This document shows positions 37,286 to 42,991 of a stretch of 64,000 nt of DNA, in pieces (positions within the stretch are counted from its first letter, which is position 1; each line of letters begins with the position of its first letter). The stretch lies in NCBI GenBank assembly GCA_016124495.1, contig WGNP01000006.1:124001-188000 (forward strand), given 5' to 3'. Under the pieces are notes generated by a model that ran no database searches, had not been told where the DNA came from, and worked only from the letters and a program-made list of their open reading frames with translations. The position numbers were made by a program, and so were the translations under genes. Source of the DNA: Hyphomonas sp. Its GTDB lineage: Bacteria > Pseudomonadota > Alphaproteobacteria > Caulobacterales > Hyphomonadaceae.

Positions 37286-38623
37286 TCAGAATTTATACCG
37301 TACCGGAATGGATTTCGGCCCGCCCACGAAGTTCGCCTTGATGAAGCTCGGCTCACCGGCCAGCTCCATCGACTTCACACGGCTGAACAGTTCCTCGTAG
37401 ATTGCCTGCATCTCGAGACGGGCCAGATGCATGCCGAGGCACATGTGCCCGCCATGCCCGAACGAGATCAGCTTGTTCGGGCTGCGGTCGACCTTGAACT
37501 TGAAGGGCTCGTCGAACACTTCCTCGTCGCGGTTGCCCGACGGGTAGCAGAGCAGAAGGCTCTCGCCTTTCAGAACCTTCTTGCCGCGCAGCGCGTAGTC
37601 ATCCTGCGCCGTGCGCATGAAATGCTTCACCGGCGTCGTCCACCGGATCGCTTCGTCGACAGCCGTGCGTGACATGGCTCTGGGGTCCGCCATCATCTTC
37701 TTCAGCTGCCCGGGGTCCTGCAGCATCGCCAGCACGCCGCCGCCGGTCGAGGCGCTGGTCGTGTCATGGCCGGCCGCTGCGGTGATGATGTAGTAGCTCA
37801 TCGCTTCCAGCTGGCCGATCGGCTCGCCGTCGATCATGCCATTGGCAATAACGGTGGAGACATCGTCCTTCGGGTTGGCGCGCCGGTCAGCGGTGATCGC
37901 CGTAAAGTACATGAAGAACTCGGCCAGCGTCGCCTGAATCGAGGCGAGGCCCTTTTCCACATCGCGCTCCTCGGCAAGCGACTTGTCGCGCATGAGGTCT
38001 TCGTCCTGCGCGCCGAAAATCTCCTGCGTCAGTTTCAGCATCATCGGTTCGTCCGACTCCGGAACACCGAGGATCTGCATGATCACGCGCAGCGGATAGT
38101 AAAGCGCCACATCGCGCTGGAAATCGCATTCGCCGCCGAGGTCTTCCATCCGGTCGACATATTGCTTGGCAATCGTCTTGATCGCGTCTTCGCGCTTTTT
38201 GACGTTCTGCGGCATGAACCATTCCTGGGTCAGGTGGCGCAGCTTGTAGTGAACCGGGTCGTCCAGCTGGACGAGGGTTTTCAGAAGGTGCGGCTGGCCG
38301 AATTTCGCATACACGCCCTCTTCTGCGGCCGCGTAGGACAGCATCTCGCGCTCGCCGTTCGTGAACAGCGCGTTCTGGCGCGACACTTCCATGATGTCGG
38401 CATGCTTGGTCACCGCCCAGAAGGGGCGAAAGGCCTCCGGTTCGCACCATGTCAGCGGATCTTCCTTGCGCAGCCGGGCGAAGGTTGCATCCTGCAGCTT
38501 GTGATCGGCGTAGAAGGCCGGCGTCACGATCAGGTCGCACGTCTCTGACGCCGTCTGGCTCATGGTCCGCGAGGGGTCAAATTTTGTCTGCGGCGGCGTG
38601 GCGAGGGCGACAGTGTCGGCCAT
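37286..38623 (-). CDS. cytochrome P450 (upstream member of tandem pair)
   Basis: The 445-residue P450 has I helix AAAGHDTTSAS, ExxR in DEAIRWTTPV and haem loop FGHGGHMCLG with Cys near residue 395. It differs widely from its neighbour, so the pair is not a recent duplication but two enzymes likely acting on one pathway. It is the first P450 of the string leading to the crotonase and DUF2855 genes. It begins 17 nt after the stop of the pseudouridine synthase gene, so it might be co-transcribed with it. No redox partner is nearby. Confidence 0.92.
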   Translation of the reverse strand: MADTVALATPPQTKFDPSRTMSQTASETCDLIVTPAFYADHKLQDATFARLRKEDPLTWCEPEAFRPFWAVTKHADIMEVSRQNALFTNGEREMLSYAAAEEGVYAKFGQPHLLKTLVQLDDPVHYKLRHLTQEWFMPQNVKKREDAIKTIAKQYVDRMEDLGGECDFQRDVALYYPLRVIMQILGVPESDEPMMLKLTQEIFGAQDEDLMRDKSLAEERDVEKGLASIQATLAEFFMYFTAITADRRANPKDDVSTVIANGMIDGEPIGQLEAMSYYIITAAAGHDTTSASTGGGVLAMLQDPGQLKKMMADPRAMSRTAVDEAIRWTTPVKHFMRTAQDDYALRGKKVLKGESLLLCYPSGNRDEEVFDEPFKFKVDRSPNKLISFGHGGHMCLGMHLARLEMQAIYEELFSRVKSMELAGEPSFIKANFVGGPKSIPVRYKF

Positions 38624-40288: not shown

Positions 40289-41299
40289 ATGCGCATGAAG
40301 ATGTTCGCTGCAGAGTCCATGGAAGCTGCGAAAGCGATGATCTTTGCGGAGATGGGCTCTGATGCGGTGATTCTTTCCGAACGCGAAGTGGACGGCGGCG
40401 TTGAGGTCCGCGCCGCCATCGATCGCATGGGCGCCGCCGCTGTCGGCAACGAGCCTGTCTTCCTCCGCGATGCCCGTGGCGGCGGCCATGGCCGCGGTAT
40501 CGACAACCCTATGTATGCCCGCGTTCGGGACGCGCTCCTCTGGCACGGCGCCCCGCAGCGCTTTGCCGACCGTGTCGCGCATGAAGGCGCCGGCCGCCTG
40601 CCGGGCCAGTTCTCCGCCCCGGAAGACGCGATGGCCGAAGGCCTCGGCCGGATGATCACCTGCGACCCGATTCCCGCCCGCTTCGACCGCGACATCCTCC
40701 TCGTTGGTCCGCCCGGCCATGGCCGCACCGCCACCGCCGCCAAGCTCACCCGCCGCGCCTCGATGGCCCGCGCCGAAGTCATCCCGCTCGCCGCCGATCT
40801 CGACGGCTCCGGCGCCGGCGCCCAGCTTGCCGCCTACCTCGAACTTGAACGCGACCAGATCCGCGTCGCCGACACGCCGGACGCGCTGTTTGCAACCCTT
40901 CGTATGCTGCGCAAGGAAAACCGCCGCTGCGTTATCGACCTGCCGGCGATCAATCCCTTCGAAGGCGACGACCTCGCCAGCCTCGCCGATCTTGTGGCCG
41001 CCATCCGCGCCGAGCCCGTGCTGGTCCTCTCCGCCGAGGGCCATCCGGAAGACCTCGCCGAAGCCGCCCGCGCCTTCCAGCGCGCTGGCGTGCGCCGCGC
41101 CATTCTCACCAAACTCGATGTCGTCCGCCGCCGCGGCGGCGCCATCGCAGCCCTGACGTCAGCGGGCATCGCCTTCTCCCACCTGGCCATCACGCCCTTC
41201 ATCGGCGGCGGTCTGGTGCCGGCGGCGCCGTCGCGTCTGTCGGCGCTTCTGATTGAAGAAGCGCGCGGCGACGTCATCGCCCTCAGAGGAGCAGCCTGA
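40289..41299 (+). CDS. FlhF-like SRP-type GTPase with degenerate nucleotide motifs
   Basis: The ATG at 40289 has gagga 8 nt upstream (336 residues); the track start is earlier. The N-domain MKMFAAESMEAAKAMIFAEMGSDAVILSEREVDGGVEV is typical FlhF, the polar-flagellum placement factor. In the G domain the P-loop is GPPGHGRT (residues 140-147) with Arg in place of the Lys, the DTYR region is replaced by DLDG, and DTAG is replaced by DLPA (217-220). Only TKLD (274-277) is kept. GTP hydrolysis, and perhaps binding, is therefore doubtful. It precedes the FlhG-like gene by 4 nt. Confidence 0.8.
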   Translation: MRMKMFAAESMEAAKAMIFAEMGSDAVILSEREVDGGVEVRAAIDRMGAAAVGNEPVFLRDARGGGHGRGIDNPMYARVRDALLWHGAPQRFADRVAHEGAGRLPGQFSAPEDAMAEGLGRMITCDPIPARFDRDILLVGPPGHGRTATAAKLTRRASMARAEVIPLAADLDGSGAGAQLAAYLELERDQIRVADTPDALFATLRMLRKENRRCVIDLPAINPFEGDDLASLADLVAAIRAEPVLVLSAEGHPEDLAEAARAFQRAGVRRAILTKLDVVRRRGGAIAALTSAGIAFSHLAITPFIGGGLVPAAPSRLSALLIEEARGDVIALRGAA

Positions 41300-41303
41300 T
41301 CCC

Positions 41304-42143
41304 ATGAGCTTCACCATGCGACGATCCCAGGACCGCCCCTCCGTTCGCCCGCCCCCGCGGGTGACGCCTGCCTCGATCATCGCGGTCGCCAGCGGCAAGG
41401 GCGGCGTCGGCAAGACCTTCATGTCTATCACGCTCGCCTCTGCCCTGGCGAAAGCCGGCCGCCGCGTGCTGCTGGTCGACGGCGACCTTGGCCTCGCCAA
41501 TGTCGACGTTCAGCTCGGCATTGCACCTGAAACCGATCTTGCGGCCGTCGTTGCCGGCTGGGTCGAGCTCGATGACGCCGTCACGCCGGTCGATGGCGGG
41601 GCAGGTGGAGGCGGTTTTGACGTGCTGCCCGGCCGCTCCGGCTCCGGCGCGCTTGCGGAACTGCCCACCGAGGAAGTCGCGCGCCTCGCCGCCGGCCTCA
41701 CGGCCCTCGCGCTCCAGTACGATCACCTCGTGCTCGATCTCGGCGCCGGCATCGAAGCCAACTGCATGCGCCTTGCGCGCTCGGCCGACAAATCCCTCGT
41801 CGTCATCACCGACGATCCCGCCTCGATGACCGACGCCTACGCCTTTATCAAGGTGCTGAAAGGTTACGCGCCGAACGTCGAGCCGATCATCGCCATCAAC
41901 CAAGCCGACACGCGCGCCGCCGGTCAGCGCACCTATGAAGCGATCGCGCGCGCCTGCACCACCTTCCTCGGTTTCCGCCCGCGCCATGCGGGCACCGTCA
42001 TGCGCGACCCGAAGGTTCGCGACGCCATCCGGTGTCAGAAGACGCTGATTTCCACAGATCCCCAGGCCCAGCCTGTTCAGGATGTGATGGCAATCGCCCA
42101 GATGCTCATCGGTGAGGGGCAGCCCGCCACCTTGGGCAATTGA
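41304..42143 (+). CDS. FlhG/MinD-like ATPase
   Basis: The start is MSFTMRRSQDRPSV at 41304 (279 residues). The deviant Walker A GKGGVGKT lies at residues 31-38, followed by LLVDGDLGLANVDVQLGI, the switch II region LVLDLGAGIEANCMRLAR and VVITDDPASMTDAYAFIKVL, all typical of FlhG/FleN. FlhG normally limits flagellar number and activates FlhF through an N-terminal DQAxxLR helix. That motif is absent here. The gene sits between the FlhF-like gene and ctrA, and no other flagellar gene is in the window. Confidence 0.85.
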   Translation: MSFTMRRSQDRPSVRPPPRVTPASIIAVASGKGGVGKTFMSITLASALAKAGRRVLLVDGDLGLANVDVQLGIAPETDLAAVVAGWVELDDAVTPVDGGAGGGGFDVLPGRSGSGALAELPTEEVARLAAGLTALALQYDHLVLDLGAGIEANCMRLARSADKSLVVITDDPASMTDAYAFIKVLKGYAPNVEPIIAINQADTRAAGQRTYEAIARACTTFLGFRPRHAGTVMRDPKVRDAIRCQKTLISTDPQAQPVQDVMAIAQMLIGEGQPATLGN

Positions 42144-42277: not shown

Positions 42278-42991
42278 ATGCGCGTCCTATTGATTGAAGA
42301 TGATCGGGCACTGGCACGCTCCATTGAGCTGATGCTGAAAGCCGCTGGCTTCAACGTCTATATGACGGACCTCGGTGAAGATGGCGTCGATCTCGGCAAG
42401 GTCTATGAGTACGACATGATCCTTCTCGATCTGTCGCTGCCGGACATCTCTGGCTTCGAAGTCCTGAAGCAGCTGCGCATGAGCCGCGTCAACACACCTG
42501 TAATGATTCTCTCGGGCAACCCGGACATTGAAGCGAAAGTGAAAACCCTCGGCTATGGCGCCGACGACTACCTCACCAAGCCTTTTAACAAGGACGAACT
42601 GATCGCGCGCATCACCGCCATCGTCCGCCGCTCGAAAGGCCATGCCGAAAGCGTCATCCGCACCGGCGAAATCCTCGTCAACCTGGATGCCAAGACTGTC
42701 GAAGTCGAAGGCGACCGCGTGCACCTCACCGGCAAGGAATACGCGATGTTCGAGCTGCTCTCCCTGCGCAAGGGCACGACGCTCACCAAGGAAATGTTCC
42801 TCAACCACCTTTATGGCGGCATGGACGAACCAGAACTCAAGATTATCGACGTGTTCATCTGCAAGTTGCGCAAGAAGCTGCAGCAGGCGACTGGTGGCAA
42901 CCACTATATCGAAACCGTCTGGGGCCGCGGCTATGTGCTCCGGGACCCCCGCCCGGCGTCTAAGGCCGGCGAAATCGAAGTCGCCGCCTAA
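42278..42991 (+). CDS. ctrA: cell-cycle response regulator CtrA
   Basis: The 237-residue OmpR-type regulator is almost certainly CtrA. The receiver [56 protein letters not shown] has the phospho-acceptor at Asp51, and [11 protein letters not shown] holds the conserved Lys. The winged-helix domain has [54 protein letters not shown]. The C-terminus ends in VAA, matching the Ala-Ala end needed for ClpXP turnover. It controls replication start, division and polar organelles. It lies downstream of the FlhF/FlhG-like genes and is followed by a clear terminator. Confidence 0.96.

Follow-up and report, generated by a model that had tools for sequence, protein, structure and literature searches.

A flagellum-derived module with a GTPase-degenerate FlhF in the Hyphomonadaceae, a possible filament-less motor

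In S. putrefaciens the N-domain of FlhF binds FliG and lets FliG meet FliF, while FlhG contacts the N-terminus of FliM (PMC11236974). FlhF and FlhG position or regulate flagella in a number of bacteria and are absent from C. crescentus according to a 2025 review (PMC12826062). In C. crescentus holdfast production receives signals from the rotor, MotAB and DgcB, also when the outer flagellum is missing (PMC7885107). Rotor proteins without a filament were reported for 11% of non-motile species in a 2025 survey, which asks what the use of half a motor may be (PMC12199754).

The window (the whole 64-kb stretch of Hyphomonas DNA that was analyzed) encodes an FlhF-like protein, an FlhG-like protein and CtrA (Table 1). 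We assign the first two to a module whose members are marked by an asterisk (FlhF*, FlhG*, mini-FliF*, FliG*, FliN*, FliM*, MotA*, and MotB*). The module resembles the FlhF/FlhG positioning switch of S. putrefaciens, Vibrio, and B. subtilis in its FID-like N-domain, its NG fold, the adjacent MinD-like ATPase and the presence of FliG and FliM. It deviates from the switch by an Arg in the P-loop, by the lack of the G2 Arg, DTAG, and DQAxxLR, and by being kept where no flagellum is encoded. It shares the gene order around sciP and FlhF/FlhG and a CtrA-type promoter box with the flagellar operon of the Caulobacterales, but lacks flhA and has a FliF reduced to TM1-RBM3-TM2-tail. Surface sensing in C. 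crescentus is similar in that a motor without outer parts can signal, but that pathway uses the swimming motor (PMC7885107), whereas the module is a separate set without an export gate. Like the non-flagellar type III secretion system, the module would be a flagellar subset turned to another use; there the export gate was retained and the motor lost, and the module is the reverse, its mirror image.

The module is a defined, syntenic and clade-conserved set with a stator, a targeting pair and a promoter box. It belongs among the flagellum-derived machines, a kind already known, while the set itself is new; we found no published description of it in the openly accessible literature.

Table 1. 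Positions of module members, their motifs and ctrA. Plain numbers are window positions; other positions are given by genome, contig and nucleotide.
Feature	Position	Strand	Remarks
FlhF*: FliG-interaction N-domain and NG domain, GTPase site degenerate	40289..41299	+	ATG at 40289, stop at 41299
N-terminal FliG-interaction domain (FID-like), MRMKMFAAES...EVRAA	40289..40426	+	Strongly conserved; match to 9en1; invariant residues
P-loop of FlhF*, GPPGHGRT (Lys to Arg)	40706..40729	+	
G2 region of FlhF*, DLDG where DTYR is expected	40796..40807	+	
G3 region of FlhF*, DLPA where DTAG is expected	40937..40948	+	
G4 of FlhF*, TKLD retained	41108..41119	+	
FlhG*: MinD-like ATPase without DQAxxLR enhancer helix	41304..42143	+	ATG at 41304 is the most likely start
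Deviant Walker A of FlhG*, GKGGVGKT	41394..41417	+	
ctrA, conserved neighbor of flhF*-flhG*	42278..42991	+	NCBIfam CtrA, 409 bits; adjacent in related loci
sciP, mini-FliF*, FliG*, FliH-like, FliN*	G000:C5:227-2836	-	Window's genome, outside the window (L129)
FliM*	G000:C22 near 140013		Outside the window
MotA*	G000:C3 near 104622		Outside the window
MotB*	G000:C19:116419-116556	-	Window's own contig, ~7.4 kb left of the window (L171)

The FlhF*/FlhG* pair and the order of its losses

An earlier note on this DNA had described a degenerate FlhF beside an FlhG-like protein that keeps GKGGVGKT and lacks DQAxxLR. The former was borne out by re-reading of the ORF and by profile matches: out of GxxGxGKT, DTYR, DTAG, and TKxD only the last was found intact, as TKLD. 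The latter agrees with the sequence, FlhG* having a MinD-like fold with GKGGVGKT and an N-terminus (MSFTMRRSQDRPSVRPPPR) in which DQAxxLR was sought and found absent. The solved FlhF FID 9en1 aligned with residues 4-46 of FlhF* (E 7.4e-6), and the SRP54 GTPase model of Pfam matched at 7.6e-11. The SRP-type NG fold was recovered against the solved FlhF 8r9r by sequence and by fold, the latter with a model of low confidence (pLDDT 59), and the nucleotide pocket in the AF2 model was set aside at this pLDDT. FlhF* scored 77 bits (2.1e-21) against the FlhF model TIGR03499 of NCBIfam, below the equivalog cut-off of 174 bits, which is not discriminating here since it was reached by none of the 299 genomes of the order. 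A cytochrome P450 gene (window positions 37286-38623, minus strand) is located near flhF* and is apparently unrelated.

By comparison with named relatives the window belongs within Hyphomonas or beside it. Homologs of FlhF* were found in 100 of the 105 genomes of the window's family. The P-loop contained Arg (GRT) in every FlhF sequence read from the genera g1 (Hyphomonas) and g12 (Henriciella) and from the sister genera g18 and g55, together referred to as the Arg clade, and these sequences were 59-98% identical to the window protein. The Lys-to-Arg change raised in the earlier note is in this sense clade-wide, but the genera g13 to g16 have GKT and the alteration of DTAG is wider, as it was found in families f1, f3, and f4, with DTPG in f5. 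The G2 Arg is absent across the window's family and present in f3 to f5. None of the Caulobacterales FlhG sequences read (f1, f3, and f4) contained DQAxxLR, even where the adjoining FlhF has GKT.

On a tree of FlhF and FlhG, for which long outgroup branches call for caution, the P-loop changes twice. The Lys-to-Arg change at the base of the Arg clade shares its branch with the departure of flhA from the locus. In one genome of genus g56 (G330, locus L112) FlhF has independently changed from Lys to Arg (GAPGAGRS) and is located beside a normal flhA; Lys-to-Arg alone is therefore no marker of flagellum loss. By the distribution of the motifs and the tree together, the activator was lost first, catalysis next and the Lys last. 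The two sides of the GTPase cycle were thus not lost together, as had been proposed, because the FlhG motif is missing in relatives that have an intact FlhF P-loop.

A recent local mutation of the P-loop was rejected, GRT being found clade-wide. A chance motif was rejected as well, given GRT in all Arg-clade sequences read and a median dN/dS of 0.10. Within Hyphomonas the median dN/dS was 0.097 for FlhF* and 0.078 for FlhG*, which indicates purifying selection, although the values are rough since dS exceeds 1. We infer from the motifs that FlhF* works without nucleotide binding; the Arg P-loop might still bind nucleotide, as FlhF* retains TKLD and most of the P-loop.

The orphan cluster and its dispersed partners

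The flagellar operon of C. crescentus has the order fliF-fliG-(flbE/fliH)-fliN-(flbD)-flhA, and this order was read in g13. In the Arg clade a colinear cluster sciP - mini-fliF - fliG - fliH-like - fliN - flhF - flhG - ctrA was found, from which flhA is missing. All of its genes stand side by side in Henriciella mobilis (L090), H. pelagia (L097), H. aquimarina (L094), Hyphomonas chukchiensis (L088), and others. In the Arg clade the gene for FliG* precedes flhF, or is found at another locus in the window's subclade (G000:C5). The orphan cluster is derived from the ancestral flagellar operon minus flhA. The pair and its place before ctrA are, as the earlier note held, kept throughout the clade.

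Pfam recognized the N, M, and C domains of FliG*, as well as FliN* and the sciP-like protein (DUF1153), and gave no credible match for mini-FliF* or the FliH-like protein. The identity of the latter (117-127 aa) follows from position and size only. Mini-FliF* has ~225 aa, and its profile aligned with the C-terminal part of FliF (96.8% probability, E 2.3e-10). In the predicted structure a TM helix is followed by an alpha-beta-beta-alpha-beta domain (pLDDT ~88-93), another TM helix and a pair of helices at the C-terminus. Among PDB entries this structure matched the RBM3 rings of Salmonella FliF best (E 3e-3, probability 1.00), with a low global TM-score of 0.25. Compared to the RBM1, RBM2, RBM3, and collar of FliF, mini-FliF* was found to have an RBM3-like domain, two TM helices and a FliG-binding tail only. 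Mini-FliF* and FliG* evolve faster than FlhF* and FlhG* (dN/dS 0.38 and 0.24).

A box of the CtrA type (TTAA-N7-TTAA, at most one mismatch) was found ahead of mini-FliF* in each of the 21 loci examined, at a distance of 60-73 bp in most of them, with spacers that differ between lineages. There is no mismatch in the box of the window's genome (L129) or in that of the flagellum-less genome G018. The background frequency of such a match is 0.003-0.07 per locus; the 21 loci are not independent tests because they are related. The 64-kb window itself contains no exact CtrA site; the box is located before mini-FliF*, elsewhere in the genome.

A rotor and stator set (FliG, FliN, the FliM C-domain, MotA, and the MotB plug) was found. 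FliM* was recognized by its C-domain and N-terminal motif only: its N-terminal AEIEALLRP (EIEALL) and the SpoA domain are retained, whereas the middle domain is strongly diverged. MotA* scored 294 bits against the MotA1 model. MotB* retains YADFLTAL with the pore Asp and the peptidoglycan-binding domain, and the linker between these is much shorter than in g13, which is in keeping with a small FliF*. The torque face of FliG* retains the Lys, the Arg and one acidic position in most rows of the alignment; the residues of FliG that contact MotA are Arg281 and Asp289 (PMC7564593). A conserved ORF of ~175 aa (MSRFDELI...) was observed right after motA* in the loci read from the Arg clade (L162 of G048, L160 of G018, and L159 of the window's own genome) and not beside motA of the g13 genome G255; it is a candidate partner.

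A second flagellum, genomes without flagella, and competing explanations

FlhA is encoded directly upstream of flhF in g13, g14, g15, g16, and g56 (~860 bits). The FlhA of the Arg clade (~675-707 bits) is encoded away from flhF, accompanied by a FliF of its own and by a distant FliG that scored ~44-64 bits in a FliG_C search, compared to ~100-127 bits for FliG*. As read from gene content, the flagellum is replaced in the Arg clade, FlhA being gone from beside flhF and a separate system being encoded elsewhere. Two genomes of genus g15 (G173:C11 and G245:C1) each encode both types of FlhA, which suggests that both systems were present together for a time ahead of the replacement. FliG, FliM, FliN, MotA, and MotB come in two sets in flagellated members; the second system has its own FlhA and FliF too, and the FlhA export gate, the rod/hook and the filament belong to it. 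In BLASTP searches FliG*, FliM*, FliN*, and MotA* of the window's genome were closer to the ancestral-type proteins of g13 than to the second set of the same genome, while MotB* scored about equally against both.

In 10 FlhF*-bearing genomes (G018, G022, G235, G048, G309, G314, G315, G307, G308, and G331) no FlhA, FliF_C, rod/hook domain or flagellin was found, and thus no complete flagellum with export gate, rod/hook and filament. All 10 kept a GRT FlhF, FliN*, and FliM*, nine kept FliG*, nine MotA*, and seven MotB*. On the tree the flagellum state changes at least six times, while the system changes once, on the Lys-to-Arg branch. A new use of the motor is suggested because the motor set is kept where the genomes encode no flagellum.

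The members may perform separate jobs and form no single assembly, with FlhF*/FlhG* as a small polar scaffold, for example, and MotA*B* working with another partner. FliM*, MotA*, and MotB* are encoded at separate loci, and partial sets occur: G309 has FlhF* without FliG*, MotA*, and MotB*, while G316 and G207 have FliM*, MotA*, and MotB* without FlhF* and FliG*. These three proteins may therefore have other work. We nevertheless regard separate jobs as unlikely, since FlhF*, FliG*, FliM*, FliN*, MotA*, and MotB* are all retained in 7 of the 10 flagellum-less genomes, FliF*-FliG*-FliN*-FlhF*-FlhG* are syntenic, and FliF* and the MotB* linker are shortened as a pair.

A role in positioning or regulating the second flagellum, for FlhF*/FlhG* and the extra ring proteins, would fit a clade in which flagellated members are the majority, as well as the role of FlhF/FlhG elsewhere (PMC12826062). 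It is quite unlikely given that the module is kept in the 10 genomes without a flagellum, that G207 (genus g17) has a second flagellum and lacks FlhF* and FliG*, and that the second system is equipped with a FliF, FliG, FliM, FliN, MotA, and MotB of its own.

The strong divergence of mini-FliF* and of the middle domain of FliM*, and the lack of some members in four assemblies, could be signs of a decaying relic of the old flagellum that persists by chance without function, a possibility also raised for other half motors (PMC12199754). A relic is an improbable explanation for open reading frames with dN/dS of 0.08-0.38, for a GRT FlhF kept at the flagellum-less tips through at least six changes of flagellum state, for a CtrA-type box conserved between differing spacers, and for conserved torque-face and pore residues. 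It is very improbable that the flagellum-less genomes are an artefact of incomplete assemblies: several are MAGs, and the search for flagellin came up empty even for the genome of the window (93.7% complete), which has rod/hook genes, but FlhA, FliF, rod/hook and flagellin are all absent from G235 (100% complete), G048, and G018 (both 99%), and genomes of this kind are spread over several lineages.

Proposed mechanism and significance

We favor, with somewhat better than even confidence, a CtrA-controlled, filament-less assembly of MS/C-ring and stator, with FlhF*/FlhG* as its targeting pair and FlhF* as a nucleotide-independent FliG tether. Comparison of genomes gives the composition, synteny, retention without flagella, selection and promoter box on which this reading builds.

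In the Arg clade the ancestral operon would have lost flhA, and FliF would have shrunk to TM1, one RBM3-like domain, TM2 and the FliG-binding tail, while FliG, FliM, FliN, a FliH-like protein, MotA, and MotB were retained and a separate second system was encoded for swimming. The operon would be switched on in the cell cycle by CtrA. Mini-FliF*, FliG*, FliM*, and FliN* would assemble into a small MS/C-ring with which MotA*B* engages. The N-domain of FlhF* would hold FliG* as a tether free of GTP hydrolysis, and FlhG*, an intact MinD-like ATPase, would cycle and may contact the N-terminal motif of FliM*. Every part that makes the contacts described in S. putrefaciens is present, so the simplest view of FlhF* is that of a FliG tether independent of hydrolysis and partnered by an ATPase.

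Assembly into one complex, the polar location and a sensory output are further inferences within this model. Lacking a rod or filament to drive, the assembly would probably serve signaling or positioning at the pole, for example by sensing load or surfaces and so acting on holdfast or c-di-GMP control. The signaling of the C. crescentus rotor makes a filament-less sensor or polar hub plausible. No output partner of the module was found and no DgcB partner was identified. The earlier note had proposed a polar scaffold. There is good support for a scaffold role beyond the flagellum, since genomes without one still have the pair, but the pair does not stand alone, as it forms the distal end of the orphan cluster.

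In its widest form the reading is more tentative and falls somewhat short of an even chance: the Hyphomonadaceae would possess a filament-less rotary machine, made of a reduced MS-/C-ring driven by its own MotAB and positioned by the FlhG ATPase and an FlhF that is dead as a GTPase. With its genes between sciP and ctrA, this machine would be under the control of CtrA and would act at the stalk, bud or holdfast pole or sense mechanical load.

A natural GTPase-degenerate FlhF is useful for separating tethering from hydrolysis. If the module is assembled, the flagellar motor would have a selectable job other than propulsion, and the module would be a candidate device for polarity or for the sensing of surfaces in budding bacteria with stalks.
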